The translations under genes were made by a program, and so were the position numbers. This document shows positions 7,422 to 26,323 of a stretch of 28,581 nt of DNA, piece after piece. Source of the DNA: Cellvibrionales bacterium UBA4495 (GTDB lineage Bacteria > Pseudomonadota > Gammaproteobacteria > Pseudomonadales > Porticoccaceae); assembly GCA_002388905.1 (NCBI GenBank), contig DGNJ01000103.1:15178-43758 (forward strand). The letters run 5' to 3'. The stretch's first letter is position 1, and the number at the start of each line of letters is the position of its first letter. Under the pieces are notes generated by a model. It made no database searches and had not been told where the DNA came from. It saw only the letters and a list, made by a program, of their open reading frames with translations.

Positions 7422-8738
7422 ATGTCTATCAATAAACCCTTCCTCCCTGGAAAGAAAAACACGATCCCGGCGCTGGCCTGCGCCATCTTCGCTGTCTCTC
7501 CCGCACTGGGCTCATCGCCGGCTGGAGATGCCGGCGCTACCCAAACGGACGGACTCTCCCTGGCGGTCGCTCCGCGGGAAGTGGCATTCGGCGAACGGGA
7601 GTTCAACCGGCAGCGGGTCGACACCTACCTGGCGCAGGTGCGGGCCCAGGAAATCAGCGGCAGCACCTACAGCCCCCTCCTTGGGGAAAGTGTCCTGGGT
7701 ATGGCCAGGTCTCTGCACAACGCCGGCGAGTATGTTCGGGCCCTGGAGGCCTATCAGCGGGCCATGCACATCAGCCGGGTCAATAACGGCATCTACAGCC
7801 TCAGCCAGGAACCCATGATCCGGGGCATGATAGAAACCTACCAGGCCGTCGGCGACCCCATCAGTGCTTCGCGCCAATATCAGGACCTGTACCGGATCTA
7901 TGCCGGCACTTACGGCAATGACGACCCGCACCTGCTTCCCGTGCTCGAGGAAATCAGCGAGTGGCACATCCGGGCCTACGCCCGCCAACCCCAGCGCGAA
8001 GGGCTTTTTCATCTGGTGTCGTCACACAACTTTACCGAAAATGCCCTCAATCTCGCCGCCGTATCACCCTCGTCCAGCGAGGTGCGCGTACTGCCTTTAC
8101 TGCACAACATGGTGACCATCAACTACCTGCTGGCCCTGCATCACCAGCAGTTTCCCGGGGGCAGCGGCGAAAGCTTCCGCTTCACGACCACCAGCGCCGA
8201 CGGATTTCCCGAACCGCCCTCCCGGGAAGAAACCCTGATGATCAACAGCTACCGCAACGGACGCAGCGCGCACGAGCAGATCATCGATATCGTCTTCAAT
8301 GACCCGGACTCCACCCCCAGGCAAAAAGCAGATGCCCTGGCTGAACTGGGTGACTGGTACCTGCTCTTCGGCCGCTACTCTTCCGCCCGCCAGGCCTACG
8401 AGGATGGCTGGAAAACGCTCGCCGAGGCCGGGGTGCCGGAACATAAACTCGACGAACTGTTCGGGCAACCCCGTATGCTCCAGCCCGTAGCGGGGATCGA
8501 TGATCGGGGGGGAGTCTCTGCCCCGTCCGAATATGCCAGGGTCGTGATGACGATTACCGACCGGGGCAATGCCGATGAGATCCAGGTTCTGGAAACCCAC
8601 CCGTCCGATGACAAAGGCCTGGCCCGCACCGCCGTGAGAACGCTCAAATACAGCAAGTTCCGCCCGCGCCTGGAACACGGGCAGGTGGTCGCCACCAAAG
8701 AAGTGCCCCTCAAACTCTACCTGACAGAGGCCCAATGA
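7422..8738 (+). CDS. Secreted TPR protein with TonB-like C-terminal domain (operon gene 1)
   Basis: A 438-residue exported protein. The frame is open from a TTG at 7401, but the ATG at 7422 gives a cleaner signal peptide (MSINKPFLPGKKNTIPALAC, then a hydrophobic stretch ending near SSPAG). Tetratricopeptide-like helices occur around residues 80-110 (LHNAGEYVRALEAYQRAM), 130-165, and 305-335 (ALAELGDWYLLFGRYSSARQ). The last 75 residues (VVMTITDRGNADEIQVLETH to VPLKLYLTEAQ) have the beta-alpha-beta pattern of TonB C-terminal domains. With no retained membrane anchor, it is likely a soluble periplasmic or peripherally bound adaptor. It opens a 13-gene operon and overlaps the next gene by four bases (ATGA). 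No confident promoter is visible in the 178-base divergent gap. Confidence 0.83.
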   Translation: MSINKPFLPGKKNTIPALACAIFAVSPALGSSPAGDAGATQTDGLSLAVAPREVAFGEREFNRQRVDTYLAQVRAQEISGSTYSPLLGESVLGMARSLHNAGEYVRALEAYQRAMHISRVNNGIYSLSQEPMIRGMIETYQAVGDPISASRQYQDLYRIYAGTYGNDDPHLLPVLEEISEWHIRAYARQPQREGLFHLVSSHNFTENALNLAAVSPSSSEVRVLPLLHNMVTINYLLALHHQQFPGGSGESFRFTTTSADGFPEPPSREETLMINSYRNGRSAHEQIIDIVFNDPDSTPRQKADALAELGDWYLLFGRYSSARQAYEDGWKTLAEAGVPEHKLDELFGQPRMLQPVAGIDDRGGVSAPSEYARVVMTITDRGNADEIQVLETHPSDDKGLARTAVRTLKYSKFRPRLEHGQVVATKEVPLKLYLTEAQ

Positions 8739-9709
8739 TTTACCGACTCTTTTTCCTGGCGCTAGCGACTCTGCTGCTGAGCGCCTGCCAAAGCCAGCAA
8801 CAACAGCAGAGCAGCTCGCAGCCACAGACGTCCAGCAGTTCGCCGTCGAGCCAGAGCCAGACTGCTTCCCGGAGCCAGCCATCATCGGCAAGCCGGTCGA
8901 CCGCGGCCGGCCAGTCGGTCCCGGGGGCACCGCCGATGCCTTCCGGCGACAACAGCACCGAGGCCGGGCCACAGGCCGACACACAAAGTACCTCCCGAAC
9001 CACCGGCACGGGCCAACAAAGCTCCTCCCGGCAACCCTCCCCGCCGGCAACCGGCGACAGCACCGGGACAGCCTCGCTGCCCGGACAAACTCCGGGTGAT
9101 ACCGGCAGCGAGAGCCCCGCAACCGGACAGGGCGGATTTGATGAAACCGCAGGCGGCCCGCGGGGTGAGGCTTCCGTCTCCGGCGAGGAAGTGGCAGAGG
9201 GCGCCGCCGGCGGTTCACCGGGCGACTCCCGGGCTTCCGGGCCGGCAACGGCCGGCGAGCGTATCGGTGTTCTGGACGAGCAACTTGACGAGTCCCTGGC
9301 CGTGTTCGACGGCATGATTCTCACCGAGCGCCGGGCCGTACAGGTCAGCGAAGACGCCAATATCGAGGATGAGCCTGCCGGTGGCAGCGGCGACGGCGCT
9401 GACGGTCCCCTGTTCGAGGAGGCCGACCTGTCCGAGCCCGGCAGCGGCGGGCAGGGGCCCGGTGGTGCCGGCGACCGGGATGCAGACAGCACCGTGCCGC
9501 CAATGCCCGGCGGAAGAGAGGCCAGTGGTCCGGCCGTGGCCTCCGCCACCAGCGACGGCGGCGTGCCCCCGGACCTGGTGGACGGCAGCGATGACGACAT
9601 CGTCGCGCGACAGATTCGGGAAGCGGCGATGAACGAGGAAGATCCGGAACTGCGGGAAAAACTCTGGGAAGAGTATCGCAAATACAAAAACCAACAGCGG
9701 GGCAACTGA
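8735..9709 (+). CDS. Low-complexity lipoprotein (operon gene 2)
   Basis: A 324-residue predicted lipoprotein: MIYRLFFLALATLLLSAC is a signal peptide with lipobox LSAC (Cys18). The mature N-terminus is a long Gln/Ser/Thr-rich tract (about residues 20-120), followed by Gly-, Pro- and acid-rich sequence with little predicted fold. Two short segments look conserved-like: GERIGVLDEQLDESLAVFDG (about 177-196) and an acidic helical C-terminus (DIVARQIREAAMNEEDPELR). It probably acts as a flexible tether between the outer membrane and periplasmic partners. Overlaps on both sides (4 bases before, 1 base after) imply coupled translation. The long antisense frame here is a by-product of repetitive codons. 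No family is recognised. Confidence 0.85.
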   Translation: MIYRLFFLALATLLLSACQSQQQQQSSSQPQTSSSSPSSQSQTASRSQPSSASRSTAAGQSVPGAPPMPSGDNSTEAGPQADTQSTSRTTGTGQQSSSRQPSPPATGDSTGTASLPGQTPGDTGSESPATGQGGFDETAGGPRGEASVSGEEVAEGAAGGSPGDSRASGPATAGERIGVLDEQLDESLAVFDGMILTERRAVQVSEDANIEDEPAGGSGDGADGPLFEEADLSEPGSGGQGPGGAGDRDADSTVPPMPGGREASGPAVASATSDGGVPPDLVDGSDDDIVARQIREAAMNEEDPELREKLWEEYRKYKNQQRGN

Positions 9710-10878
9710 TGGGCCGCTCACTGACGACAATCGCGACGCTTCTCTTCACGGCCTTACTGGTGACCGGTTGCGGTTCCACCACGGTCAAGTCCACCGCCTT
9801 CGAGCCCCTGGCCCAGGAGACCGCCCTGATCCCCGAAAGCCGGCTGCTGGACGTGGGAGTGCTCACCTTCGATCCGGGACTGGACGATGTCGAGGAGGGC
9901 CAGTCCCTGTTTCCCGAGGTGCGAAATGCCGAATCACGCTATTTCGCCGACCAGCTGGTGGAGACTCTGCAACGCAGCGGCGCCTGGGGGCCGGTGAGGG
10001 TCATTCCCAGCGGGGACACGGTGGTGGACCTCTACGTCCGGGGCAAGATCCTGCATTCCGACGGCGAGCGCCTGGCCCTGGCCATTGAAGCCCGGGATAC
10101 CAGCGGCCGGCTCTGGCTCGACAAGGACTACGAGGAGGTGGTCAGCAGTTATGCCTACGACGGCCGCCGGAAAAGCGAGCGGGACCCCTTCCAGGGCCTT
10201 TTTAACCGCATCGCCAATGAACTGCTCAAGAAACAGCACAATCTGCCTCCGGAGCGGGCCGAGGAACTGCGCCTGATCTCGGAACTGCGCTTCGCCCGGC
10301 GCTTTGCACCGGACGCCTACAGCGGTTACCTCAGGGAAAACCGCAAGGGGGAACTGGAAATCCTTCGCCTGCCGGCCGAAAACGACCCCCTGCTGGCGCG
10401 CATCGAACGTATCCGTCGCCGGGACTACCTGTTTATCGACACGCTCCAGGAGCATTACAACGCTTTTTCAAGGCGCATGGACAAACCGTACCAGACCTGG
10501 CGCGCCTCCAGCTACGAGGACGTGATCGCCGCCCGGGAACTGCAGCGCCAGTCGAAGGCCCGGCTGATCGGTGGTATTGCCGCTGTGGCGGCGGGAATCG
10601 CCGCCGCTACCGGCGACGGCTCCAGCCAGGTGGGGGGCATGATGGCCGCCGGCGCCGGGGGTATGCTCATCAAGAGTGCCCTGGCCAAAAAGCAGGAAGC
10701 CCAGATGCATATTGAAGCCCTGGCGGAACTCGGGCAATCTCTGGAGGCGGAAATCGAGCCCCAGGTGATCGAGCTGGAGGATCGCACCATCACCCTGACC
10801 GGGAACGCCGAGGCCCAGTACGAACAATGGAAGGACATCCTGCAGCAAATGTACGAAACCGAGAGAGGCGATATCTGA
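9709..10878 (+). CDS. Lipoprotein with TolB-N/CsgG-like domain and glycine-rich segment (operon gene 3)
   Basis: A 389-residue predicted lipoprotein, with signal peptide and lipobox LVTGC at Cys21. Residues about 45-150 alternate beta strands and helices: DVGVLTFDPGL, then ADQLVETLQRSGAWGPVRVI, then DLYVRGKILHSDGERLALAI. This resembles the TolB-N/CsgG-type fold common in envelope lipoproteins; that is a fold-level impression only. A hydrophobic Gly/Ala-rich stretch near residues 284-325 (GGIAAVAAGIAAA and GGMMAAGAGGMLI) resembles a glycine zipper and may insert in a membrane or oligomerise. The C-terminal 60 residues are helical and charged. The start overlaps the previous stop (TGATG). Function unknown; probably an outer-membrane-associated part of the operon's complex. 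Confidence 0.85.
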   Translation: MGRSLTTIATLLFTALLVTGCGSTTVKSTAFEPLAQETALIPESRLLDVGVLTFDPGLDDVEEGQSLFPEVRNAESRYFADQLVETLQRSGAWGPVRVIPSGDTVVDLYVRGKILHSDGERLALAIEARDTSGRLWLDKDYEEVVSSYAYDGRRKSERDPFQGLFNRIANELLKKQHNLPPERAEELRLISELRFARRFAPDAYSGYLRENRKGELEILRLPAENDPLLARIERIRRRDYLFIDTLQEHYNAFSRRMDKPYQTWRASSYEDVIAARELQRQSKARLIGGIAAVAAGIAAATGDGSSQVGGMMAAGAGGMLIKSALAKKQEAQMHIEALAELGQSLEAEIEPQVIELEDRTITLTGNAEAQYEQWKDILQQMYETERGDI

Positions 10879-10911
10879 TCGGCGTGTCGACGAGCAACCC
10901 GAACGAGAAGT

Positions 10912-12396
10912 ATGGTTGACGACAACGATTTCAAGAACATCGCGCCGGCGGATGTCGATCTCACCCGCCCCGCCAGCGGGGCTGCGGGAGACAAGCCCGA
11001 CACAATCGGCAACGGCAACCGCTGGTTACTGCCGTCCCTGATCCTGGCGCTGCTGGCCGTGGCAGCGGTGATATTCATCCTGCCCCGCTATATCCAGCCC
11101 GATACCACCGGACCGAAAGCGGAGAGGACTGCCCCGGCACCGGTCAAGGAGTCGCCGTTCCGGGAAGCCCAGTTGGCCAAGGCCAGGCAAAATGCCCAGG
11201 AAGTGCTGGCGGGGGTCCTGGAAAAGCAGGGTTTCCTGGAGGGGAAAAATGTCAAAGAATGGGGCCGTGAAGACTATGAGCGCGCCCTGTCCCTGGCCGC
11301 CGAGGGGGACGCCCTCTATCGCAAGCGGGAATTCGGTCCGGCCCTGGACCGGTATCAGGCCGCCGATCAAGCCCTGGCCGAACTGGAAAACCGCATCGAC
11401 CGGGAGGTGGCCACGGCGCTCGAGCGCGGACAGTCCGCGCTGGCGGCCGGCGACGCCGACAGGGCCACTGAGGCCTTCCAGCACGTACTCGCCATCGAAC
11501 CCGACAAAGAGACGGCCCGCAAAGGCCTGGAGCGGGCGCGCGTATTGCCGGCGGTCCGCTCGTTGATTGCCGGTGCCGACAGCGCCCGGGAAGCCGGGGA
11601 TTGGCAGCGCGCCCTGGAACTCTACCGGGAAGCCCGTCAGCGTGACCCGGCCAATACCGAGGCCGACGAAAAACTCGCGGATCTCGAACAGGCGATCCTC
11701 GACAGGGATTTTGCCGGGGCCATGAGCCGCGGGTTCTCCGCTCTCCAGGCCGGCCGACCGGAACAGGCGGCTGACGCCTTCCGTGCCGCCCTCAAGCTCA
11801 AGTCCGACAGCAGCGAGGCGCGGGACGGTCTCAACCAGGCCCGCAACCAGCTCGACCAGCGCTGGATCCGGGAGCGGCTGGCCCGGGCACGTGACCTGGA
11901 GTCCCGGGAACAGTGGTCCGGAGCACTGGACCTCTACCAGCAGATTCTCGACCGGGAAAGCGTGATGGATGCCCGCATCGGCCTGATCCGAAGTCGCGCC
12001 CGGGCGGAACTGGATGCGGGCCTGGAAAAAACCCTGGCCGATCCGTTGCGCCTGGGTGAGCCGGCGGTGGCCCGCCATGCCCGCCAATTGCTCGAGGATG
12101 CCCGCAGTATCGAAAACCCCGGGCCCCGGCTTGCCCGGCAGAAACAGGCGCTCGCGGATGCCCTTGAATCGTCTGCCGACCCGGTCCCCGTCACCCTGCA
12201 CTCGGACAACAAGACCCGGGTCACGCTCTTGCGGGTAGGCAAACTGGGCACCTTCGACACCCGGCGGATTGCCCTCAAACCCGGTCGCTACGTAGCGGTG
12301 GGTACCCGAGAAGGCTACAGGGATGTGCGCGTTGAATTCGAAGTGCACAGCTCCGAGCAGACCGGGGTGACCATTGCCTGCCGGGAACCGGTTTGA
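10912..12396 (+). CDS. Single-pass inner-membrane TPR protein with C-terminal PEGA-like domain (operon gene 4)
   Basis: A 494-residue protein. Residues 1-35 are cytoplasmic, 37-58 form a membrane helix (WLLPSLILALLAVAAVIFIL), and the rest is periplasmic by the positive-inside rule. Several TPR-like repeats follow, for example YERALSLAAEGDALYRKREF, ERGQSALAAGDADRATEAFQ, DSAREAGDWQRALELYREAR and RGFSALQAGRPEQAADAFRA (about residues 120-310). The last 70 residues are beta-rich (VTLHSDNKTRVTLLRVGKLG, then RIALKPGRYVAVGTREGYRD) and resemble a PEGA-like domain. This links it to the next protein, which carries several such repeats. It starts 33 bases after gene 3 and its TGA overlaps the next ATG. 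Likely an assembly scaffold in the periplasm. Confidence 0.85.
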   Translation: MVDDNDFKNIAPADVDLTRPASGAAGDKPDTIGNGNRWLLPSLILALLAVAAVIFILPRYIQPDTTGPKAERTAPAPVKESPFREAQLAKARQNAQEVLAGVLEKQGFLEGKNVKEWGREDYERALSLAAEGDALYRKREFGPALDRYQAADQALAELENRIDREVATALERGQSALAAGDADRATEAFQHVLAIEPDKETARKGLERARVLPAVRSLIAGADSAREAGDWQRALELYREARQRDPANTEADEKLADLEQAILDRDFAGAMSRGFSALQAGRPEQAADAFRAALKLKSDSSEARDGLNQARNQLDQRWIRERLARARDLESREQWSGALDLYQQILDRESVMDARIGLIRSRARAELDAGLEKTLADPLRLGEPAVARHARQLLEDARSIENPGPRLARQKQALADALESSADPVPVTLHSDNKTRVTLLRVGKLGTFDTRRIALKPGRYVAVGTREGYRDVRVEFEVHSSEQTGVTIACREPV

Positions 12397-14456
12397 TGAC
12401 GGAGCGGAAATCCGGACAGGATCGGGGCATCGAACCCACCGCTTTCGAGCCGCTGTCGGGCCCACCCACCCGCCGGCGCCGGCGGATCCGCGCGGCTGCG
12501 GTTGTCCTGGCTACCCTGGCCGTGCTCGGCATTGCGGTCCTCGCCTTCCTGTTCACAGCGCGCTCCCTGACCCTGGAAACCGAACCTCCCCAGGCATCGG
12601 TTTCCCTGTCCGGCGGTCTTGTCGTCAATCTTGGCGATCACTACCTGTTGCGCCCCGGCGAGTACCGGGCGTATGTCGATGCCGAGGGTTATCTCGGCCG
12701 GGAAGTAGCTTTTACGGTGACGGAGGCGGACAACCAGCGACTCCTTGTGACCCTGGAGAAAGAACCCGGCCACCTGGCCGTTACCAGCGAACCGGCGGGC
12801 AGCCTGGTATTGCTGGATGACACAAGCCGGGGGCGAACGCCCGTCACCCTCGACAGCGTTTCACCGGGCACCCATACCCTGACCCTTAAACATCCCCGCT
12901 ACTTTTCCGAAACCCTGGAGATCGACGTGGCAGGCCGGGATATCACCCAGGAAGTGGCGGTCACCCTGAAGCCGGCCTGGGGCACGATCCGGTTGAGCAG
13001 CAACCCGGGCGGCGCCAGGGTTACCGTGGACGGAAAAACGCTGGGCACCACGCCCCTGGCAGCGCCGGTATTGTCGAGCGGGGAAACCGTCACCCTGACC
13101 CTGCCCGGGCACAAGACCTGGGAGCGCACCCTGGCCGTCGAGGCCGGGCAGACCCGGACCCTGGATACCGTCGAACTGGAGCCCGCCGACGCTATCGCCC
13201 ACTTGAACAGCCAGCCCGGCGGCGCCTCGGTCACCGTCAACGGCGAATACCGGGGACGAACCCCCCTGGAACTGGCGCTGTCCCCCGGCCAGCCCCATAC
13301 CCTGCGCCTCTTTCTCGATGGCTACCGCACCGCCGAAAAAACCCTGACCCTGGCCTCCGGGGAAGAGCAATCCGTGACTGTCGACCTCCAGGCGCGCACC
13401 GGTACGGTCCGCGTTGTCAGCGAGCCCGGCGGTGGCGATGTCTATGTCGACGGCAAGCGACAGGGTTCTTCCGGGGATGTCCTGGAACTGCCGGCCCGGG
13501 CCCACCGCATCGAGGTGCGCAAGGAGGGCTTTGCTCCCCAAGCCAAAACAGTCACTCCCCAGCCCGGGCTGGAGCAGGTGCTGCGCTTCTCGCTGCTCAC
13601 CGAAGAGGAGGCCCGCTGGCGCAGCACCCCAAAACAGGTCCGCACCGGTGCCGGACAGACCCTGAAGCTATTCCGGCCCGAAACCACCTTTGACATGGGC
13701 TCCTCGCGCCGGGAACAGGGCCGGCGCGCCAATGAAGTGGTCCGCACCGTGCGCCTCGAGCAACCCTTCTATCTGGCGGTCGCCAAAGTCACCAACGCCC
13801 AGTACAAGCAGTTCCGGGCCACCCACAGTTCCAGCCACGCCGGCGGCAAAACACTGGATACGCCGCAGCGCCCGGCCGTGCGAGTGAGCTGGCTCGATGC
13901 GGTGCGCTACTGCAACTGGCTCAGCGAAAAGGACGGCCTGACCCCTTTCTACCAGATCAGCGACAACAAGGTGACCGGCATCCAGGCCGGCGCAAACGGT
14001 TACCGCCTGCCCACAGAAGCCGAATGGGCCTGGGCCGCCCGCATAACCGAAAACGGCTCCAAAAAATTCCCCTGGGGAGACGGTTTCCCGCCACCGCCCA
14101 AGGCCGGCAACTTCGCCGACCTCAGTGCCCGGGAAATCGTTGGCCGCATTATTTCCGGGTATCGGGATGGCTTTGCCGTCTCCGCACCCGTGGATGCCTT
14201 CCCCGCCAACGACAAGGGGCTCTTCGGGCTCGGCCACAATACCGCGGAATGGCTCCACGATTACTACGGCATCGAGGCCAGCCTGGGCAGCAAGGCGGAA
14301 GTCGATCCCCTGGGGCCGGACACCGGCGAATTGCGCGTGATTCGCGGCGCCAGCTGGCGCCACGGCTCCATTACCGAGTTGCGCCTGTCTTTCCGGGACT
14401 ACGGCCTCGATGGCCGCGACGACCTGGGCTTTCGAATCGCCCGTTATGTGAAATAA
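12396..14456 (+). CDS. Single-pass protein with PEGA-like repeats and a SUMF1/FGE-fold domain (operon gene 5)
   Basis: A 686-residue protein. It has a cytoplasmic N-terminus with an Arg cluster, a membrane helix (about residues 31-54), then about five PEGA-like beta repeats starting near residues 57, 124, 195, 264 and 334 (typical pattern: NSQPGGASVTVNGEYRGRTP). Residues about 415-686 form a formylglycine-generating-enzyme-like (SUMF1) domain: VTNAQYKQF, VSWLDAVRYCNWLS, GYRLPTEAEWAWAAR, HNTAEWLHDYY and VIRGASW, ending in DDLGFRIARYVK. The catalytic cysteine pair of true FGE, expected after RGASW, is absent, so a binding or structural role is likelier than sulfatase maturation. The ATG at 12396 (TGATG overlap) is preferred over the TTG one codon upstream. 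SUMF1-fold proteins also occur with the GldLM motor in Bacteroidota (GldK), an analogy only. Confidence 0.9.
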   Translation: MTERKSGQDRGIEPTAFEPLSGPPTRRRRRIRAAAVVLATLAVLGIAVLAFLFTARSLTLETEPPQASVSLSGGLVVNLGDHYLLRPGEYRAYVDAEGYLGREVAFTVTEADNQRLLVTLEKEPGHLAVTSEPAGSLVLLDDTSRGRTPVTLDSVSPGTHTLTLKHPRYFSETLEIDVAGRDITQEVAVTLKPAWGTIRLSSNPGGARVTVDGKTLGTTPLAAPVLSSGETVTLTLPGHKTWERTLAVEAGQTRTLDTVELEPADAIAHLNSQPGGASVTVNGEYRGRTPLELALSPGQPHTLRLFLDGYRTAEKTLTLASGEEQSVTVDLQARTGTVRVVSEPGGGDVYVDGKRQGSSGDVLELPARAHRIEVRKEGFAPQAKTVTPQPGLEQVLRFSLLTEEEARWRSTPKQVRTGAGQTLKLFRPETTFDMGSSRREQGRRANEVVRTVRLEQPFYLAVAKVTNAQYKQFRATHSSSHAGGKTLDTPQRPAVRVSWLDAVRYCNWLSEKDGLTPFYQISDNKVTGIQAGANGYRLPTEAEWAWAARITENGSKKFPWGDGFPPPPKAGNFADLSAREIVGRIISGYRDGFAVSAPVDAFPANDKGLFGLGHNTAEWLHDYYGIEASLGSKAEVDPLGPDTGELRVIRGASWRHGSITELRLSFRDYGLDGRDDLGFRIARYVK

Positions 14457-14478
14457 TGACGCCGACAGAGATCCAGCC

Positions 14479-14748
14479 ATGAGCTCAGAACGCCTCGCAA
14501 CCCTGCTCCTGATAGCCATCCTGCTGATCGTCCCGGGAATGGCTGTCCGGGCCCAGCAACCGTCCGACAGCACGCCGGGCGATAATTTGCCGGAATCCGG
14601 GCGAGAGGCGGCTGAAACGAGCCAGGCCGACAACCCGCCCGGCGAAAGCCGGGAAAATAACGTGTCCCCCGACCGGCCGGACGTGACCTTCAAGCCATCG
14701 GAAGAGATATCCGAAGACCTGTCGGTGCCGTTCCCGGTGGATATATAA
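14479..14748 (+). CDS. Short secreted protein of unknown function (operon gene 6)
   Basis: An 89-residue protein with an N-terminal signal peptide or membrane anchor (residues 8-25, cleavage possible at VRA-QQ). The mature part is short, polar and probably disordered, rich in Ser, Pro, Glu and Asn. It ends in a more hydrophobic tail (VTFKPSEEISEDLSVPFPVD) that could be a binding motif. It sits between the PEGA/SUMF1 gene and the channel subunit gene, 22 and 17 bases from them, which suggests a small accessory partner. No family recognised. Confidence 0.75.
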   Translation: MSSERLATLLLIAILLIVPGMAVRAQQPSDSTPGDNLPESGREAAETSQADNPPGESRENNVSPDRPDVTFKPSEEISEDLSVPFPVDI

Positions 14749-14765
14749 AAAAGGAAATCGTCCCT

Positions 14766-15575
14766 ATGACCGTCTACAGGAACCAGGAATTCATTTTTCA
14801 ACTTTTCGCCCTGATCATCGCCCTGATTCTGGTGCACGGTCTCTATGTCACCCTTATCCGTCCCGCCGCCAGCGCCCAGCTGGAAGCGCAACTGGAACGG
14901 GAGGCCGCCGGCGAACCCTATGTGGCCGAGCGCTCCTTCTATATTGTCGTCAAGGATTACGAGCAGGAAGCCTGTTTCGTGCTGATGCTCTGGGCCATGG
15001 CGATCATGGGCTACAAGACACGGCTGACCCTGAAGGAACGCCGGCTGCTCGACACACCCATGATCAACGTCTCCGAGGGTACCCGCATCCTGCCCGAGGA
15101 CGCCCGCCAGCTGGCCCGCCCCATCGAGGCCCTGCCCCGCCACCAGCAGAATTACCTGCTGCCCCGGGCCCTGAGCGCGGCGCTCCAGCGCTTCAGTGCC
15201 ACCGGCAGCATCCAGGCGGTCTCCGGTGCCGTCAGCGAGGTGTGCGAAACGGAGAATGAACGGCTCGACTCGGAACTGGCCATGGTCCGCTACATTGCCT
15301 GGGCGATCCCCTCCATCGGCTTTATCGGTACGGTGCGCGGCATTGGCGAGGCCCTGGGCCAGGCCCACAAAGCCGTGCAGGGCGATATCGCCGGGGTCAC
15401 CGCAAGCCTGGGCGTGGCCTTCAATTCCACCTTCATCGCCCTGGTGATCAGCATCGTGGTGATGTTCCTCATGTATCAACTGCAACTGATCCAGGAACGG
15501 CTGGTACTGGAGACACACAGCTACTGCGACCGCAACCTCATTCGCCACCTCAAACACGAGGGCCCGACGGCGTGA
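14766..15575 (+). CDS. MotA/TolQ/ExbB-type proton channel subunit (operon gene 7)
   Basis: A 269-residue inner-membrane protein of the MotA/TolQ/ExbB superfamily, whose pentamers conduct ions around a dimer of an ExbD/MotB-like partner. Four hydrophobic segments are seen (about 9-31, 69-84, 174-196 and 213-240), with a cytoplasmic domain between the second and third. The family signature is in the last two: IPSIGFIGTVRGIGEALGQA (181-200), matching the GLFGTV-type motif of TolQ/ExbB, and VTASLGVAFNSTFIALVISI (211-230), carrying polar Asn220, Ser221 and Thr222 that would line the pore. An AAGGAAA precedes the ATG by about 8 bases. No stand-alone exbD, tolR or motB is nearby; the two VWA proteins downstream have the matching anchor helix. 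The stop overlaps the next GTG start. Confidence 0.92.
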   Translation: MTVYRNQEFIFQLFALIIALILVHGLYVTLIRPAASAQLEAQLEREAAGEPYVAERSFYIVVKDYEQEACFVLMLWAMAIMGYKTRLTLKERRLLDTPMINVSEGTRILPEDARQLARPIEALPRHQQNYLLPRALSAALQRFSATGSIQAVSGAVSEVCETENERLDSELAMVRYIAWAIPSIGFIGTVRGIGEALGQAHKAVQGDIAGVTASLGVAFNSTFIALVISIVVMFLMYQLQLIQERLVLETHSYCDRNLIRHLKHEGPTA

Positions 15576-16900
15576 ACGGAGCCGACACCAACACCCGCAG
15601 GCCCGCTATTATCGAGCTTGTGGACAGCGACATCCGCTGCCTGGCACCCGACGGTACCCTGATCGCCACCGCCGGTTACGCAGTTCTGGAAAAAGGCGGC
15701 ATCGCCACCGGCGACGAGGCCCTGGCCCGGGCCTGGCTGCAACCCCAGCAGACGTTCAATCACTTCTGGCACCAGCTTAACCTGGCTCCCCTTCCCACTG
15801 ACAGTCGGCACGCCCGGCACCATGCCGACCTGGCCTTTGCCCAGTTGAGCCGGTTGTTCGAGGCACTGGGACAGCCGGGCGAAATACTCTTTGCCGTACC
15901 CGGTAGCTTTTCCCGGGACCAGCTCTCGGTGCTGCTCGGCCTTACCGCCGCTCTGCCCGCCAGGGCGGCGGGCCTGGTGGACGCCGCCGTGGCCGCTGCC
16001 AGCCATGGGCCCTGGACCGGAGAAGTTCATCATCTGGACATCCAGCTGCACCAGGCGGTGATAACCCGCCTGGCGGTGGACACGACGGTTGAACGTCTGG
16101 CGCTGGAGGTGGTGCCCGAGGCCGGCCTCAGGGCCCTCTACAACGGCTGGGCACAGCACATTGCCGAACTCTTTATCCGCACCTATCGCTACGATCCGTT
16201 GCATGCCGCCGAGGGCGAGCAGCAACTGTTCGACCGGCTCCCGGTCTGGCTGGCCCGCCTGCGCGAAACCCCGGAGCTGGAAATCGAACTGGCCACCCCC
16301 AGGGGCGACTTCCGCCTGACACTGCACCGCAACAGCCTGCTGGAGAATGCCGAACATCGCTTTGGCAAACTGGCGACAACGCTCCAGCGGCTCGGCAAAG
16401 TGGACCACCTCCTGGCCAGCCACCGCGCCGCCGGCCTGCCCGGCCTGGCCGACTATCTGGGCGCCGCGCCCCTGGCTGCCGACAGCGCCATTAGCGGTTG
16501 TCTCTCCACCCTGGAAGCAATCTGCGGCGACGGCGAATCGGTGGACTTCGTCACACGCCTGCCGCACCGGCCGGGTCGGGCCGCCGGGTCCGCGCCGGCC
16601 AAAGCCCCTACGACAGGCGCCCGGGAACCGAGCCCCGAAATCCCCACCCACCTGCTTTGCGGGCATCAGGCCTACCCGCTGGCGCCGGCACTGGGTATCG
16701 ACTGGCGCGACGGAGACGTTGTTTTCACCCGGTCTTCCGGAGCGCCCGTACTGGTGGAGCGCCGCGACGGTCGAATCCACATCAGCGACAACAGTAAAGA
16801 TGGCCTGGCGCACGCGAGCAGCGCCGAGCCCCGCTGCGGCGACACCCTGACCGTCGGCGACCGCCGCCTGCTATTCATCGAGGTGGAACCGGGCACCTGA
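15572..16900 (+). CDS. Cytoplasmic protein with possible degenerate actin/Hsp70-like fold and FHA-like C-terminus (operon gene 8)
   Basis: A 442-residue protein with no signal peptide or membrane helix, started by GTG overlapping the channel gene (GTGA). The N-terminal 330 residues show an alternation suggestive of the ASKHA (actin/Hsp70) fold: a first beta region (IIELVDSDIRCLAPDGTLI), EILFAVPGSFSRDQLSVLLG followed by AAGLVDAAVAAAS, and a second-lobe strand (VHHLDIQLHQAVITRLAVD). The glycine-rich phosphate loops of active members (DxGTT and DxGGG types) are missing or replaced. After a linker (about 335-360), the C-terminal 80 residues are beta-rich and end GDTLTVGDRRLLFIEV, reminiscent of the last strands of an FHA domain. 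Both assignments are fold-level inferences. It may be the cytoplasmic regulatory or scaffold subunit bound to the channel. Confidence 0.72.
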   Translation: MNGADTNTRRPAIIELVDSDIRCLAPDGTLIATAGYAVLEKGGIATGDEALARAWLQPQQTFNHFWHQLNLAPLPTDSRHARHHADLAFAQLSRLFEALGQPGEILFAVPGSFSRDQLSVLLGLTAALPARAAGLVDAAVAAASHGPWTGEVHHLDIQLHQAVITRLAVDTTVERLALEVVPEAGLRALYNGWAQHIAELFIRTYRYDPLHAAEGEQQLFDRLPVWLARLRETPELEIELATPRGDFRLTLHRNSLLENAEHRFGKLATTLQRLGKVDHLLASHRAAGLPGLADYLGAAPLAADSAISGCLSTLEAICGDGESVDFVTRLPHRPGRAAGSAPAKAPTTGAREPSPEIPTHLLCGHQAYPLAPALGIDWRDGDVVFTRSSGAPVLVERRDGRIHISDNSKDGLAHASSAEPRCGDTLTVGDRRLLFIEVEPGT

Positions 16901-16901
16901 T

Positions 16902-17963
16902 ATGGCCAGGAAACGGCGGCGCATCAACCCCTTCAGCCTCTCTTTTCTGGATATCATGGCCTGCGGCTTCGGCGCCGTGACCCTGCTGTTCCTGATCCTC
17001 AAGCACGATGTGGGCAGCGCCACCGGCGAACCCGGTGTGCGGGCCGAGGCGGACCTGCTCCGGGAAGAGATCCGCACCGGCGAAAAGGACCTGGTGGCGT
17101 TGCGCAACAGTCTCGCCCGCATGGAGGAGCAGATCGTCGAAGCCAGGGGCCTGTCAAAGCGGATCGTGGGCCGTATCGAGGAAACCCGTCGGGAACTGAG
17201 CGTCCAGTCCGACCCGGAAGACGAGATCGCCCGCCTGCGCAAGCAGGTGGAGGAGATGGAGCGGGAAGTGGCGGAGCAACGGGAACAGGGCCGCGACCGC
17301 AATGTCCGGCGCTTTGTCGGCGAGGGCGACCGACAGTACCTAACCGGCCTCAAGCTGGGCGGCGAACGGGTACTGATCCTGCTGGACGCCTCGGCGAGCA
17401 TGCTCGCCGAGGATATCGTCAATGTCCTGCGTCGGCGCAATATGGACGAGGACATCCGGCGCCGGGCGGACAAATGGCGCCGGGCCCTGCGCACCGTGGA
17501 ATGGCTTTTGGCCCAGCTGCCACCCCGCAGCCGCTACCAGGTTTATACCTTCAATACCGCGGTCCGACCCGCCATCGAGGGTTCCGCGGGCACCTGGCAG
17601 GACGCCGCCGACCGGGCCGCCATGGACCGGGCCGTGGCGGCCCTGCGCGAGCGGGTACCGGGGGACGGCACCAGCCTGGTCAACGCCTTCTCCGCTGCCG
17701 GCGACTTCCGGCAGGGGCCCGACAATATTTTCCTGATCACGGACGGCCTGCCCACCCAGGGCAGAAAACCGCCCGCCGCCAATACGGTATCGGGACGCAA
17801 GCGGGTCGAACTCTTCGATGAGGCCACCCGGGCGCTGCCCGACGCGCCGGTGAATATCATCCTCTTTCCCATGGAGGGGGACCCGATGGCGGCGGCACTG
17901 TTCTGGCAACTGGCGGTGGCGAGCCGGGGTGCCTTTCTGAGCCCCGCCAGCGACTGGCCGTAA
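16902..17963 (+). CDS. Membrane-anchored VWA protein with ExbD/MotB-like helix, paralog A (operon gene 9)
   Basis: A 353-residue protein. A basic start (MARKRRR) precedes one membrane helix (about residues 12-34) containing SLSFLDIMACGFGA, with Asp17 placed as in ExbD/TolR/MotB anchor helices. A coiled coil follows (about 46-135), then a von Willebrand A domain (about 150-353) with a complete metal site: Asp162-x-Ser164-x-Ser166, Thr257 in GDGTS and Asp281 in ITDGLP. The positive-inside rule puts the VWA domain in the periplasm. It starts one base after the preceding stop and is followed 16 bases later by a paralog with the same layout. I infer it is one of the two stator 'B' subunits for the MotA/TolQ/ExbB-type channel. 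Confidence 0.88.
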   Translation: MARKRRRINPFSLSFLDIMACGFGAVTLLFLILKHDVGSATGEPGVRAEADLLREEIRTGEKDLVALRNSLARMEEQIVEARGLSKRIVGRIEETRRELSVQSDPEDEIARLRKQVEEMEREVAEQREQGRDRNVRRFVGEGDRQYLTGLKLGGERVLILLDASASMLAEDIVNVLRRRNMDEDIRRRADKWRRALRTVEWLLAQLPPRSRYQVYTFNTAVRPAIEGSAGTWQDAADRAAMDRAVAALRERVPGDGTSLVNAFSAAGDFRQGPDNIFLITDGLPTQGRKPPAANTVSGRKRVELFDEATRALPDAPVNIILFPMEGDPMAAALFWQLAVASRGAFLSPASDWP

Positions 17964-17969
17964 GGAGGG
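17964..17969 (+). promoter_or_regulatory. Strong Shine-Dalgarno of VWA paralog B
   Basis: GGAGGG directly after the TAA of paralog A and 10 bases before the ATG at 17980. It is stronger than sites inside the rest of the operon, suggesting independent and possibly higher translation of this subunit. Confidence 0.6.
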
Positions 17970-17979
17970 CGTAGACAAG

Positions 17980-18972
17980 ATGCGCAAGCGACGTAGAGAA
18001 CTGGTGCCGGAAATCAGCCTGTCCTTTCTCGATGTGATCAGCTGCGGTTTTGGTGCTATTGTTCTGTTATTACTGATCGCCAAGACCGTGGAATCCACGG
18101 CCCTGGAAAAGGCCCCGGATTTCGAGGGCAGTGTCCGAAAGCTCCAGGAACAGTTATTCGAGATTCGCGGGGAAACCACCCAGCTCAACCGCGAACTCCA
18201 GTCCCGGGAGGAACAGCTTTCGCAAATCCGGGAACGCGTGGCCAGGCTGCGGGAACAACTGGCAAGCCTGGAAAAACAGCGGGATGCGGTGGCGGAAGTG
18301 GATACCGAGAAGAAAGAAGAACTGACCCTGGCCCTGCAAGTGCTCAGCGAGGAAATGGAACGCCTCCTGGGGCGGGATTTTCGCAGCGAAAACAACCTTG
18401 TCGGCGGCATCCCGGTCGACAGTGAATACATCATATTTATTGTCGACACCTCAGGCAGCATGTTCAATTATGCCTGGCCGCGGCTGCGGCGGGAGATGGT
18501 CAATATTCTCGACATCTACCCCCGGGTGAAGGGAATCCAGATCATGAACGACATGGGGGATTACATGTTCCCCGGCTATCGCGGCAAGTGGATTCCCGAC
18601 ACTCCGGCCCGGCGACGGGTAATCCTCCAGCGCCTGGCGAACTGGACCCCGTTCAGCAACTCCAGTCCCGTGGAGGGTATCCAGCGGGCCATCAGCAGTT
18701 ATTACGACCCCGACAAAAAGCTGAGCCTCTATGTCTTCGGCGACGACTTCACTGGCACGTCCATTCGCCAGGTGCTGGATACCGTCGACAAGATCAACCG
18801 CGATCGCCTGGAGGGTGACCGGCTGGTGCGCATCCACACGGTGGGCTTTCCGGTACACTTCCTGGTACCCGGAGGACGCCTTCAGACGGCGTCCCGCTTC
18901 GCCGCCCTGATGCGGGAGCTGAGTTACCGCAATCACGGCACGTTCATCGGCCTCAACAGCCTTGAAAACTGA
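17980..18972 (+). CDS. Membrane-anchored VWA protein with ExbD/MotB-like helix, paralog B (operon gene 10)
   Basis: A 330-residue protein with the same plan as its neighbour: a basic start (MRKRRR), a membrane helix (about residues 13-35) with SLSFLDVISCGFGA and Asp18, a long coiled coil (about 45-130), and a VWA domain (about 150-330) with Asp156-x-Ser158-x-Ser160. The VWA parts are much more diverged than the anchor helix, so the shared constraint is on the membrane segment. Features unique to this copy are NDMGDYMFPGYRGKW and SLYVFGDDFTGTSIRQVLDT. Together the two could form a heterodimer inside a channel pentamer, or alternate homodimers. It is probably periplasmic apart from the N-terminus. 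Confidence 0.88.
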   Translation: MRKRRRELVPEISLSFLDVISCGFGAIVLLLLIAKTVESTALEKAPDFEGSVRKLQEQLFEIRGETTQLNRELQSREEQLSQIRERVARLREQLASLEKQRDAVAEVDTEKKEELTLALQVLSEEMERLLGRDFRSENNLVGGIPVDSEYIIFIVDTSGSMFNYAWPRLRREMVNILDIYPRVKGIQIMNDMGDYMFPGYRGKWIPDTPARRRVILQRLANWTPFSNSSPVEGIQRAISSYYDPDKKLSLYVFGDDFTGTSIRQVLDTVDKINRDRLEGDRLVRIHTVGFPVHFLVPGGRLQTASRFAALMRELSYRNHGTFIGLNSLEN

Positions 18973-18973
18973 C

Positions 18974-19597
18974 ATGCACAGATTCTTCGGCGCCGCCACC
19001 GCGATTGTCCTGCTGGCCCTGGCCGGTTGCAGCACCAGCGTCACGGTGGACAGCGATTTCCCCGAACCGGTCAATCACAGCCTGCCGGTCCGGGCCGGCC
19101 TGCTCCTCGAAGAGGACTTCCTTGCCTACACCTTCGAGCGCGACAAGGGTCGCGATATCACCCTGGCCCTGGGCAACGCCCAGGGCGAACTGTTCCGGAA
19201 CGTGGCCAATCACCTGTTCGTCTCGGTCCGGGAACTGGAAGCGCTGCCCCAGGGCGACAGCGGCCTGGACCTGGTTCTCTCCCCCCGGGTGGAAGACATA
19301 CAGCTTGCCACCCCCTTCGACACCAAGCTCGAGGTCTTCGAGGTCTGGATCAAGTACAACATCCGGGTCTACCGGGGCGACGGCGAACCCCTGGCGGACT
19401 GGATCATGACCGCCTACGGCAAAACGCCGACCCGGTTCCTGAAATCCCGGGGAGAGGCCCTTAACCGGGCAACGGTGGTGGCGCTGCGCGATGCCGGGGC
19501 GCGCCTGATTATCGAATTTCCGCGTGTTCCCGCTGTCTATAATTGGTTGAAGGACAATATTCGCGAGAAAGACGCATCCACGGGGGCCGGGCCATGA
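18974..19597 (+). CDS. Lipoprotein of unknown function (operon gene 11)
   Basis: A 207-residue predicted lipoprotein, with signal peptide MHRFFGAATAIVLLALAGC and lipobox LAGC at Cys19. The frame is open from a TTG at 18962, but the ATG at 18974, one base after the previous stop, gives the proper signal peptide. The mature part alternates strands and helices (VRAGLLLEEDFLAYTF, then LALGNAQGELFRNVANHLF, then LDLVLSPRVEDIQLATPF), compatible with a compact alpha/beta lipoprotein fold of the TolB-N/CsgG or YajG kind. I cannot name the family. It overlaps the next gene by four bases. Confidence 0.82.
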   Translation: MHRFFGAATAIVLLALAGCSTSVTVDSDFPEPVNHSLPVRAGLLLEEDFLAYTFERDKGRDITLALGNAQGELFRNVANHLFVSVRELEALPQGDSGLDLVLSPRVEDIQLATPFDTKLEVFEVWIKYNIRVYRGDGEPLADWIMTAYGKTPTRFLKSRGEALNRATVVALRDAGARLIIEFPRVPAVYNWLKDNIREKDASTGAGP

Positions 19598-20271
19598 ACT
19601 TTCGTCTGCTGATCCTCGCAAGCACCCTGGTACTGGGCGCCTGCACCACCACCACGGTCAACGAGCACCGGACAAACCCAGTCGGACTGACACTGGACGG
19701 TTCCGAGAAAGTCGTGGTCCTGGGCCGTCGCCACGCCGGTCAATACGAGACGGAACCGGATTTTATCGATTGCATTGGCGGCAAGCTCGACGACAACACC
19801 GCGGTCACCATTGTCGACGAGGGCGACTTCATCGACAGCCTCTATCCCTGGTTCGAACCGCGCACCGCCCCGCTGCGCCTGGGCCGCCTGGAACGGATGC
19901 TGGCAGACCCCCTTATTGCCCAGCAGGTCCAGGCACTGGGGATCCGCTACATGATCTGGGTGGATGGCAACACCGAAACCACCGAGTCCGACGGCAGCAT
20001 CAGCTGTGCCGTAGGGCCCGGGGGCGGCGGCTGTTTTGGCTTTGCCACCTGGGAGAAAGCCTCCAATTACGAGGCGGTGATCTGGGACATAGAGCAGCTT
20101 GCCGACATGGGACGGGTGAAGGTCGACGCCAAGGGCTCTTCCTATCTGCTCGCCGTGGGGGCACCGATTCCCTTTATTGCCCGGGTCCAGGGCGAGGCCT
20201 GCGACGGCATCGGCACCCAGTTGCGCTCGTTTTTTAATCGCAAAGGTATCGCCAGCAACGAGGATTCATGA
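19594..20271 (+). CDS. Lipoprotein of unknown function (operon gene 12)
   Basis: A 225-residue predicted lipoprotein, with signal peptide MNFRLLILASTLVLGAC and lipobox LGAC at Cys17. The ATG at 19594 overlaps the previous stop (ATGA) and is preferred over an upstream start at 19543 that would lack a signal peptide. Notable segments are DSLYPWFEPRTAPLRLGRLE, LGIRYMIWVDGNTETTESDG, a Gly-rich loop with two Cys (CAVGPGGGGCFGFATW), NYEAVIWDIEQLADMG, and a third Cys near the end (GEACDGIGTQL). The cysteines could form a disulfide. The fold resembles the nucleotide-free alpha/beta lipoproteins that support envelope machines, but no family is named with confidence. Confidence 0.82.
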   Translation: MNFRLLILASTLVLGACTTTTVNEHRTNPVGLTLDGSEKVVVLGRRHAGQYETEPDFIDCIGGKLDDNTAVTIVDEGDFIDSLYPWFEPRTAPLRLGRLERMLADPLIAQQVQALGIRYMIWVDGNTETTESDGSISCAVGPGGGGCFGFATWEKASNYEAVIWDIEQLADMGRVKVDAKGSSYLLAVGAPIPFIARVQGEACDGIGTQLRSFFNRKGIASNEDS

Positions 20272-21692
20272 CCTTTCTCGTTCGTCGACAACGCGTGTGG
20301 CTCGTTCTCTGCCTGCTGATCGCCCTGCCGGCGCGGGCGTTCTTCATGTCCGCCGACAAGGAGGCCGAGATCGGCCGGGAGCTTTACGAAAAGATCACCT
20401 CGCAGATGGCGGTGTACGAAGAGCCGGAGCTCAACGCCTACCTCGAGCGCGTCGGCGACAGGCTGGTGGCGCAAACCGAACGAGCCGACGAGGATTTCAC
20501 GTTCACCATTATCGACAGTCCCGACATCAATGCCTTTGCCACCCCCGGCGGCTATGTCTACGTCAACCGGGGCCTGATCGGCTACCTTCAGTCCGAGGCC
20601 CAGTTGGCGGCGGTGGTGGCCCACGAGATAGCCCATGTCACCGCCCGCCACGCCGCCCGCCAGAAACGGGCAAGGACCACGTCCAACATCGCCGCCGGGC
20701 TGCTGGCCATCCTTTCCCGCAGCGGGGAGGTGGGCGAGGCCACGGCCCTGTGGGGGGAAGCCACTGTGCGCGGCTACGGCCGGGACATGGAGCTGGAGGC
20801 GGACGGCCTGGGCGCCAAATTCCTGGCCAGGGCGGGGTATCGCCCCCAGGCCATGATCGACGTCATCACCCTGCTCAAGGACAACGAACGCTTCGAGAAA
20901 CGCCGGGCCAGTGAATCGGGGCGGGAAACCCAGACTTATCACGGCCTCTTTGCTACCCACCCGCGCAACGATCAGCGACTCCGGGAGGTGGTATCCAGTG
21001 CCGGCGACATCCTGGAAGCCGAGGGCGAAACCAATGCCACGGCCTTTCGCATCGCCACCGACGGCCTGGTCTGGGGCGAGAACTTCCAGGCCAAGCCCCG
21101 CAAAAAAAACCGCTATTATCATGAGGGGTTGCGCTTTCGCTTCGACTATCCCGAGAACTGGCAATTCACCGAAAGCGAAGGCACCATCGTCGGGCAGCGG
21201 GCAGACGGTAGCGGCGAACTGCACCTGGCCATCCACACGCGCACCCTCGCGCCGCCGGCGCAATTTATCAAGGACAGCCTGGGGATCCCCTTTATCCGCA
21301 AATCCCAGCCCTTTTCCCAGGGCCACCTGCAGGGCCACACGGGCCTGATTCCGGGAAAAGACGGCGCTCCCGACAAGCGACTGGCGGTGATCTACTACAA
21401 CCGCCACGCCTATGTGTTTACCGGCGAAGTGCGCGATACCGGCAACCGCGAAGTACTGGACGACGAGTTCCTGCAGATCATCGGCAGCTTCGCGCCCCTG
21501 TCCCGGGCCCAGTTGAGTAACCGGGAGCCGGAACGCATTCATTACGTCAAGGCCACCGACAACACCACCTTCGCGCAACTGGCCCGCTACCTGAAGCTGG
21601 GTCGCTACGGGGAAGAGCAACTGCGTCTGATCAACGGCTATTATCCTGTCGGCGAACCCGAGGCCGGCGAATGGATCAAGATCATCCGCTGA
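20268..21692 (+). CDS. M48-family zinc metalloprotease with LysM-like C-terminus (operon gene 13)
   Basis: A 474-residue exported protease similar in plan to BepA/YfgC-type envelope proteases. The signal peptide ends near LPARA. The zinc site is HEIAHVTARHAAR, with His119, Glu120 and His123, and the downstream ELEADGLGAKF (residues 175-185) supplies the third ligand Glu. After the catalytic domain (about 25-260) comes a region with YHEGLRFRFDYPENWQF, typical of M48 proteins that carry an extra folded domain. The last 50 residues (IHYVKATDNTTFAQLARYLK to GEWIKII) look like a LysM-type peptidoglycan-binding domain. It overlaps the previous gene by four bases and closes the operon. Its likely job is quality control or processing of envelope parts, perhaps of the operon's own proteins. 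Confidence 0.92.
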   Translation: MTFLVRRQRVWLVLCLLIALPARAFFMSADKEAEIGRELYEKITSQMAVYEEPELNAYLERVGDRLVAQTERADEDFTFTIIDSPDINAFATPGGYVYVNRGLIGYLQSEAQLAAVVAHEIAHVTARHAARQKRARTTSNIAAGLLAILSRSGEVGEATALWGEATVRGYGRDMELEADGLGAKFLARAGYRPQAMIDVITLLKDNERFEKRRASESGRETQTYHGLFATHPRNDQRLREVVSSAGDILEAEGETNATAFRIATDGLVWGENFQAKPRKKNRYYHEGLRFRFDYPENWQFTESEGTIVGQRADGSGELHLAIHTRTLAPPAQFIKDSLGIPFIRKSQPFSQGHLQGHTGLIPGKDGAPDKRLAVIYYNRHAYVFTGEVRDTGNREVLDDEFLQIIGSFAPLSRAQLSNREPERIHYVKATDNTTFAQLARYLKLGRYGEEQLRLINGYYPVGEPEAGEWIKIIR

Positions 21693-26180: not shown

Positions 26181-26240
26181 TTCATTTCATGCCGTATTCC
26201 CCCTGCCCAGGAGCTTTTTTTATCCAGCCATTCGCGCCTA

Positions 26241-26270
26241 TTGCTACCGGCTGGCGATTCGGCGCACAAT
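26241..26270 (+). promoter_or_regulatory. Possible sigma70 promoter for the RimK-like gene
   Basis: TTGCTA (26241-26246), an 18-base spacer and CACAAT (26265-26270) lie 53 bases before the ATG at 26324. Moderate matches only. Confidence 0.33.
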
Positions 26271-26323
26271 TCCGCTACTCCCGGGCCCGGCTCCATTCCC
26301 GCCACGCCAGTATTGCAGCCACC

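Follow-up and report, generated by a model that had tools for sequence, protein, structure and literature searches.

Relation to described ion-driven motors

The closest described relatives of the system reported here belong to the TPH-vWA/TolQ-like motor family (PMC12204202, Fig. 4c,d), for which a core of a TolQ-like channel and paired VWA proteins, with an Asp-bearing transpore helix and no tolR, was predicted in June 2025 (Mol Biol Evol 2025, msaf138; PMC12204202, section 8). Published AlphaFold 3 (AF3) models of the same family place the Asp inside a TolQ-like pentamer (PMC12204202). We analyzed a stretch of 28,581 nt (the window; G000:C14:15178-43758, contig DGNJ01000103.1) from the draft genome of Cellvibrionales bacterium UBA4495 (3.38 Mb in 132 contigs, about 93% complete), in which an operon of 13 genes encodes such a core. 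The operon shows the features given for the family in msaf138, namely a tolQ-like gene and two heterologous genes for transmembrane VWA proteins, with no tolR nearby; the Asp-bearing helix and the lack of tolR/exbD are likewise shared. Whereas section 8 of PMC12204202 covers the channel and the VWA pair only, the operon described here adds further conserved genes.

We propose, with a probability of roughly 0.6, that the operon encodes a trans-envelope machine of the 5:2 type, run by the proton (or sodium) motive force and with a likely mechanical output. The gene set, its order and conservation, the predicted folds, and a motif linkage between two of the genes are established here. A reading of the window from its letters alone (hereafter the sequence-only reading) had taken the whole system for a candidate undescribed machine. 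The motor core had in fact been predicted in print, and the description seems to remain apt for the machine around it: the accessible text of PMC12204202 names no PEGA, SUMF1, Hsp70, micropeptide, or small protein, with the reservation that its Fig. 4c draws gene clusters and may show neighbors, and the accessible text of PMC12505986 does not mention VWA. No other description of the motor core was found in the full-text literature, a weak indication given that preprints and most subscription journals lie outside such a search, and no phenotype was reported for the predicted TolQ-VWA core in the literature searched. The parts that seem new are the conserved machine around the core, a micropeptide ending in FPxDI, a disordered lipoprotein with a conserved end of approximately 31 residues, and a motif in gene 5 that is linked to gene 8. 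The function of most kinds of ion-driven 5:2 motor is not known, and the predicted core thereby gains a full, testable parts list of a seven-gene core plus the micropeptide, found from gammaproteobacteria to Mariprofundus. The set recurs, in constant order, across numerous marine and iron-oxidizing bacteria.

Operon structure and gene content

All 13 open reading frames (ORFs) lay on the plus strand between 7422 and 21692, with junctions of −4 to +33 bases (four 4-base overlaps, two 1-base overlaps, and a widest gap of 33), in agreement with the tightly packed same-strand operon of the sequence-only reading. The G+C content at third codon positions was 0.74-0.84 in all 13 genes vs. 0.65-0.74 in the seven long minus-strand shadow frames checked, which favors the plus strand for most genes; gene 2 and its shadow frame had the same value (both 0.74). 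The plus-strand frames are real genes because they are conserved among relatives.

Pfam models were matched over their cut-offs by genes 1 and 4 (TPR), gene 5 (PEGA and FGE-sulfatase/SUMF1), gene 7 (MotA_ExbB), gene 9 (VWA_2), and gene 13 (M48); genes 2, 3, 6, 8, 10, 11, and 12 had no Pfam match over cut-off. In the window, genes 2, 3, 11, and 12 encode lipoproteins (N-terminal signal and lipobox Cys). A simple lipobox pattern was present in 38 of 74 relatives of gene 2, 70 of 95 of gene 3, 80 of 91 of gene 11, and 63 of 89 of gene 12, so that lipidation across relatives is predicted rather than proven for every one, most weakly for gene 2. Pfam, lipobox, and profile comparisons thus confirmed the earlier inventory of four lipoproteins, two TPR proteins, a PEGA/SUMF1 protein, a channel subunit, two VWA proteins, and an M48 protease, and the single cytoplasmic subunit with a recognizable fold proved to be Hsp70-like (gene 8). 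The genes are as follows (named and well-covered loci are defined below).

7422..8738 (+), gene 1: exported TPR protein, TonB_C-like at its C-terminus, a lineage-specific extra (TPR_12, 38 bits; TonB_C, 21.6 bits, below the cut-off of 24.6).
8735..9709 (+), gene 2: disordered Ser/Gln/Pro/Gly-rich lipoprotein with a conserved end of about 31 residues (DDDIVARQIREAA..E.DPELREKLWEEYRKYK), core (tail motif; 83 of 84 well-covered loci).
9709..10878 (+), gene 3: core lipoprotein that combines an alpha/beta domain similar to FlgT, PelC, CsgG, and TolB-N with a long helical hairpin (predicted fold).
10912..12396 (+), gene 4: bitopic inner-membrane TPR protein, transmembrane segment 39-57, core (TPR_2, 41 bits; hydrophobicity; 83 of 84 loci).
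12396..14456 (+), gene 5: bitopic inner-membrane protein with one transmembrane segment near 35-54, PEGA repeats, and a head that is SUMF1/GldK-like but lacks the cysteines of formylglycine-generating enzymes (FGEs), core (PEGA, 195 bits; FGE-sulfatase, 120 bits; 83 of 84 loci).
14479..14748 (+), gene 6: micropeptide with an N-terminal signal or transmembrane segment and the tail ...P(S/T)E.ISED..V.FPxDI-COOH, core (tail ORF beside gene 7).
14766..15575 (+), gene 7: channel subunit of the MotA/TolQ/ExbB type, core (PF01618, 54.1 bits; cut-off 22.9).
15572..16900 (+), gene 8: cytoplasmic subunit of Hsp70/ASKHA fold with a C-terminal FHA-like domain, common and absent in several lineages (profile, model, and Foldseek).
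16902..17963 (+), gene 9: VWA1, a transmembrane helix with Asp17, a coiled coil, and a VWA domain, core (VWA_2, 31.8 bits).
17980..18972 (+), gene 10: VWA2, a paralogue of VWA1 with Asp18, core (profile match to VWA1).
18974..19597 (+), gene 11: an extra lipoprotein, found in 68 of the 80 named loci.
19594..20271 (+), gene 12: an extra lipoprotein in which several Cys are invariant, likewise found in 68 of the 80.
20268..21692 (+), gene 13: exported M48 metalloprotease with a BepA-like catalytic domain, extra (PF01435, 123 bits; 56 of 80 named loci).

Many of the 80 named loci end too soon upstream, and gene 1 was in the cluster at 32. Gene 13 scored 145 bits against the BepA model over residues 26-246 (cut-off 570).

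Gene order and co-occurrence

The comparison covered 131 loci (L045-L161 and L186-L199), not deduplicated between collections. Because nearly all of them were picked by a VWA2 match, the evidence lies in the companion genes and not in the presence of VWA2. Both VWA genes were present in 122 loci, which were taken as members. The nine left out were four non-members identified by hand (L055, L056, L198, and L199), three loci cut by contig ends (L060, L061, and L125), and two loci picked by gene 3 (L195 and L196). In 120 of the 122 member loci, all core genes found kept the order and strand of the window, and the operon order is therefore not due to chance. This is the recurrent synteny across distant taxa that had been set beforehand as a test of the system. 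The exceptions were L048, with gene 7 placed after gene 10, and L102, where gene 6 had an apparent match on the minus strand beside an otherwise ordered set.

Members whose sequence extends 8,500 bases or more upstream of VWA1 were counted as well-covered loci. Among these 84, gene 2 was found in 83, gene 3 in 82, genes 4, 5, and 7 in 83 each, and gene 8 in 71; the absences among genes 2-7 came from L051, where genes 3 and 7 were missing, and L123, where genes 2-5 were. The ASKHA-like gene 8, which the sequence-only reading had placed in the defining set, was thus missing from 13 of the 84. Gene 7 lay on the same stretch as the VWA pair in 111 of the 122 members; 10 of the other 11 have fewer than 1,300 bases upstream, and the eleventh is L051. 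In the 80 named loci, genes 1-13 were found in simple order in 27 and genes 2-13 in 15, the rest being cut by contig ends or lacking some genes.

A search with gene 3, independent of VWA2, matched 15 of the same 229 genomes of the class that were searched with VWA2 (see below), and 14 of these were also VWA2-positive. The fifteenth (G185; L195:8373-11305) contains broken remnants of genes 2, 3, and 4 without a VWA2 match, an apparent loss of the whole system. Conversely, 2 of the 16 VWA-positive genomes of the class (G087 and G213) had no gene-3 match.

The predicted motor core

All 111 distinct sequences of gene 7, including one taken from the different locus L055, have T189 and T222; we take these to be the pore-lining Thr/Ser positions of the last two transmembrane helices. 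The two VWA proteins were homologous over their full length (profile-profile comparison, E 2e-29). Because of this match, and because 7 of 22 members of its family match VWA_2, gene 10 is regarded as a VWA protein despite having no Pfam match. Each VWA protein has a short basic N-terminus, one transmembrane helix starting FLD, approximately 115 residues matching coiled-coil models, and a VWA domain.

The intramembrane Asp was nearly invariant: Asp17 of VWA1 was present in 118 of 119 sequences, the sole exception being a gap in L155, and Asp18 of VWA2 in 120 of 121, the sole exception being the false positive L198 (the residue counts still include L198 and L055). D162, S164, and S166 of VWA1 were found in 118, 119, and 119 of 119 sequences, and D156, S158, and S160 of VWA2 in 120 of 121; these presumably form a metal site of the DxSxS type. 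A Cys four residues past the intramembrane Asp (residue 21 of VWA1 and 22 of VWA2) was present in 111 of 119 and 115 of 121 sequences, mostly replaced by Ser otherwise, and in 0 of the 23 ExbD/TolR segments collected. From its position, its invariance, and the published AF3 models, we take the Asp to be the probable counterpart of that of ExbD/TolR. No ExbD-family gene (PF02472) was found on the operon contig, C14; four were found elsewhere in the genome (C131, C8, C88, and C99). Profile searches of the PDB with the channel and with gene 3 gave nothing useful, and those with VWA2 and VWA1 gave mostly coiled-coil matches.

A related and different locus was observed at L055:9725-14416 (G090:C1). 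By eye, it encodes a TolQ-like channel, a zinc-ribbon/FHA-like protein, a PP2C-like phosphatase, only one transmembrane VWA protein, which has a helix Asp, and a trypsin-like protein whose end is FHA-like; no micropeptide tail was found there.

The micropeptide and the end of gene 2

Gene 6 varied in length from 89 residues in the window to approximately 45 elsewhere, with a variable middle and a near-fixed end (84 distinct tails: Asp 100%, Ile 98%, Pro 98%, and Phe 84%; [FYL]PxD[IM] in 81). The gene-6 profile missed 14 loci between genes 5 and 7, eight of them in Mariprofundus, and all 14 contain a short ORF ending in FPVDI or a close variant. A frame-blind search of 112 loci placed a tail ORF directly before gene 7 in 108; the misses were two displaced tails (L048 and L146), one ending in ISLHADI (L117), and the different locus L055. 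An FPxDI-type tail was therefore present in 110 of the 112 loci, plus one diverged. Elsewhere in the same 2.18 Mb such a tail preceded only 7 of 148,643 stops, two of which were those of L048 and L146, and in the genome of the window the FPxDI DNA pattern followed by a TAA or TGA stop occurred once, at gene 6. Because the tail is so rare away from the operon, gene 6 looks like a dedicated part and not the carrier of a general sorting tail. The sequence-only reading gave this 89-residue product no role; it is a signature component of the system.

In L048, gene 7 has moved away and gene 6 is still behind gene 5, which favors gene 5 over the channel as the partner of the gene-6 tail. The end of gene 2 was similarly conserved, with the motif in 84 of 90 distinct tails from Mariprofundus to Microbulbifer. 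Tentatively, the gene-6 tail might be held by the VWA heads or by the SUMF1-like head, and a motor with such a built-in peptide ligand would walk or pull a ring of outer-membrane lipoproteins; we consider this version of events possible and on balance somewhat doubtful.

Proposed machine

In the machine that we favor, five copies of gene 7 would form a ring in the inner membrane, and the transmembrane helices of one VWA1 and one VWA2 would pass through it as a heterodimeric, asymmetric axle. TolR/ExbD would not be needed because the VWA helices would themselves carry the ion on Asp17 and Asp18. Ion flow would turn or rock the axle. The approximately 115 mostly coiled-coil residues, which would span roughly 12-17 nm if largely helical, would hold the two metal-site VWA heads some 12-15 nm above the membrane. 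Their partners at that height would be stationary parts of the envelope, namely the rods of gene 5 (PEGA-SUMF1) and gene 4 (TPR) and two lipoproteins, the products of genes 3 and 2, putatively located at the outer membrane. A PEGA rod of four or more units could have a reach similar to that of the VWA arms. The -FPxDI-COOH tail of gene 6 and the end of gene 2 would probably serve as ligands, which either the VWA metal sites or the SUMF1-like head would grip and let go. Gene 8 may, in most lineages, serve in the cytoplasm as a scaffold or regulator by docking on the N-terminal motif of gene 5. The most likely output would be mechanical work on the outer membrane or cell wall, such as anchoring or pulling of the Tol-Pal kind.

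Gene 7 and the two VWA proteins conserve the residues expected of a 5:2 motor, consistent with membership of that class, which the sequence-only reading had already suggested. Several observations weigh against the proposal. The comparison of the VWA transmembrane helices with 23 ExbD/TolR helices was not significant (hhalign probability 2.7% and 1.0%; E about 0.02), and the local alignment ended short of the Asp. The locus L051 (G213) has the VWA pair with genes 2, 4, 5, 6, and 8, whereas gene 3 was not found and gene 7 lies on another contig (C39); L123 has genes 6-13 in order, and genes 2-5 were not found in the available stretch. In favor of the proposal, the pairwise distances of six core genes were correlated (Spearman 0.76-0.88; 84 non-redundant loci), a range of values that shared ancestry alone can also give.

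Comparison with Tol-Pal and Bat

The Tol-Pal system resembles the operon in its 5:2-type motor, in the TolB-N-like fold of gene 3, and in the TPR and TonB_C-like domains close by. It differs in that the operon contig has no TolR/ExbD gene, and a separate tolQ-tolR-tolA-like set (identified by eye) is present elsewhere in the same genome. Tol-Pal was rejected as an identity for the operon: gene 7 scored 29.1 bits against the TolQ equivalog TIGR02796 (cut-off 221), and the cluster has no TolR/ExbD gene. The Bat aerotolerance operon combines a MoxR ATPase and a DUF58 protein with VWA genes. It was also rejected, as models for AAA/MoxR and DUF58 had no match at E 0.1 among the 13 products.

The gene-5 head and a secretion or gliding machine

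FGEs have a catalytic Cys pair in a C-terminal loop. In the corresponding columns of gene 5 (648-681; 99 distinct sequences), Cys occurred once at 652 and once at 670, and nowhere else; with no Cys pair, gene 5 is unlikely to be an active formylglycine enzyme. The best NCBIfam match of gene 5 was GldK (85 bits; cut-off 350), and the family profile scored 118 bits against solved structures of FGEs vs. 99 bits against PorK chains.

These matches bear on a secretion or surface-transport/gliding machine resembling type IX systems, in which the motor would drive a SUMF1-type (GldK-like) ring under the outer membrane, with the lipoproteins as exit or track. Type IX secretion/gliding (GldKLMN) likewise pairs a 5:2 motor with a SUMF1-fold partner, and the domain of gene 3 resembles the secretion lipoproteins CsgG and PelC. 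In a 2026 review, GldLM is proposed to push a conveyor belt of GldJ/K/N (PMC13104615), which would be a parallel. However, the higher score of FGEs than of PorK places the GldK link at the superfamily level; GldK is a lipoprotein, whereas gene 5 is anchored in the inner membrane; no GldL, GldM, or GldN NCBIfam match was obtained in the ten proteins scanned; and no outer-membrane barrel family was matched in the 13 products. We regard a machine of this kind as unlikely. As a direct identity, type IX secretion was rejected on the GldK score, far under its cut-off, and on the missing GldL/M/N matches in those ten proteins.

Gene 8 and its link to gene 5

Gene 8 was Hsp70-like by profile match (E 8e-6) and by its model (predicted local distance difference test, pLDDT, 90; Foldseek E 3e-16 to DnaK). 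An FHA domain was matched in 2 of 24 family members (best E 1.8e-12), and the phosphate motifs of DnaK-type nucleotide binding were not clear by eye in the family consensus. The gene was absent from 13 of the 84 well-covered loci, those of Mariprofundus among them. An N-terminal cytosolic motif of gene 5 was present in 69 of 76 loci with gene 8 vs. 0 of 16 without (P 8e-13), truncated proteins being left out of the count. A candidate docking motif in gene 4 showed a weaker trend (40 of 73 with gene 8 vs. 0 of 15 without; shuffled rate 5%). ASKHA scaffolds of the PilM/GspL type are similar in that a cytoplasmic actin-like fold is proposed to recognize a bitopic membrane protein through a short peptide at its N-terminus; gene 8 differs in its FHA-like end.

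A cytoplasmic Hsp70-like protein with an FHA-like domain, tied to a cytosolic motif of gene 5, would also suit an envelope sensor or regulator, in which load on the VWA arms gates ion flow through the channel and gene 8 reports the envelope state to the cytoplasm; the PP2C-like phosphatase and FHA-like proteins seen by eye at L055 point the same way. Gene 8 is dispensable, however, while motor, rods, and lipoproteins stay, and a sensor seems a rather remote explanation.

Distribution among bacteria

The closest named relatives of the window proteins, judged from the best 120 of at least 8,000 matches, were mostly Porticoccaceae. In the family of the window, the proposed machine was found in 35 of 37 genomes; it was absent from G247 and G250, and G235 had only a piece at a contig edge. 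One family genome of 1.3 Mb, listed as 100% complete, carries it. Near-universal presence, even in a complete genome of this size, probably indicates a basic envelope role in the family. In total, 39 of 58 close genomes matched VWA2; in the rest of the order, 4 of 21 matched, one of them (G269) a probable false positive.

Of the 229 genomes of the class, the window's own included, 18 matched VWA2. With G199 discounted and G090 set apart, 16 genomes with 13 family labels remained; in G087 and G098, the match was VWA1 on a short contig. G199 and G269 were dropped as false positives (matches in the coiled-coil region, without a gene-7 match). Among 398 genomes of the phylum, 22 matched VWA2: 16 strongly and six (G574, G285, G328, G342, G362, and G531) in the coiled-coil region only, the latter being false positives. 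Thirteen of the 16 strong matches fell in one family outside the class, Mariprofundus, whose operon reads 2-3-4-5-(6)-7-9-10, the seven-gene core and the micropeptide without gene 8. Protein matches (gene order not included) extended to Sneathiella (Alphaproteobacteria), Candidatus Kentrum, and Desulforhopalus.

In named genomes, at least 254 relatives were confirmed among 591 stretches, and 80 were kept as named loci, including Microbulbifer, Halieaceae, Pseudoalteromonas denitrificans, Bowmanella, and Lysobacterales. Two of them (L146 and L157) are operon copies in metagenome-assembled genomes labelled Desulfatiglandales and Candidatus Desulfobulbus rimicarensis, which could reflect horizontal transfer or mis-binning. 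In viral contigs scanned with VWA2, 10 stretches were obtained and 0 relatives were confirmed.

This distribution also bears on defence, which the sequence-only reading had allowed as an output and which is now disfavored: a Zorya-like anti-phage system, in which a 5:2 motor triggers an effector, would share the motor type (gene 7 being MotA_ExbB), but it is highly improbable given the housekeeping pattern of uniform order and of presence in nearly all genomes of the family, the lack of any defence-family match beyond coiled-coil noise in a PADLOC scan of ten proteins, and the lack of a recognized effector-like gene in the core. Zorya itself was rejected as an identity, with gene 7 matching 0 PADLOC families and VWA2 giving only a coiled-coil match to ZorA2 (E 4.8e-4).

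Neighboring genes

Upstream of the operon, and separated from it by two minus-strand ORFs, a gene at 4623-5900 (+) of the window has Chalcone_3 and TonB_C domains over cut-off. Downstream, an acetyltransferase-like gene (named by eye) at 24913-26037 (−) adjoins an RLAN/ATP-grasp gene at 26189-27799 (+).

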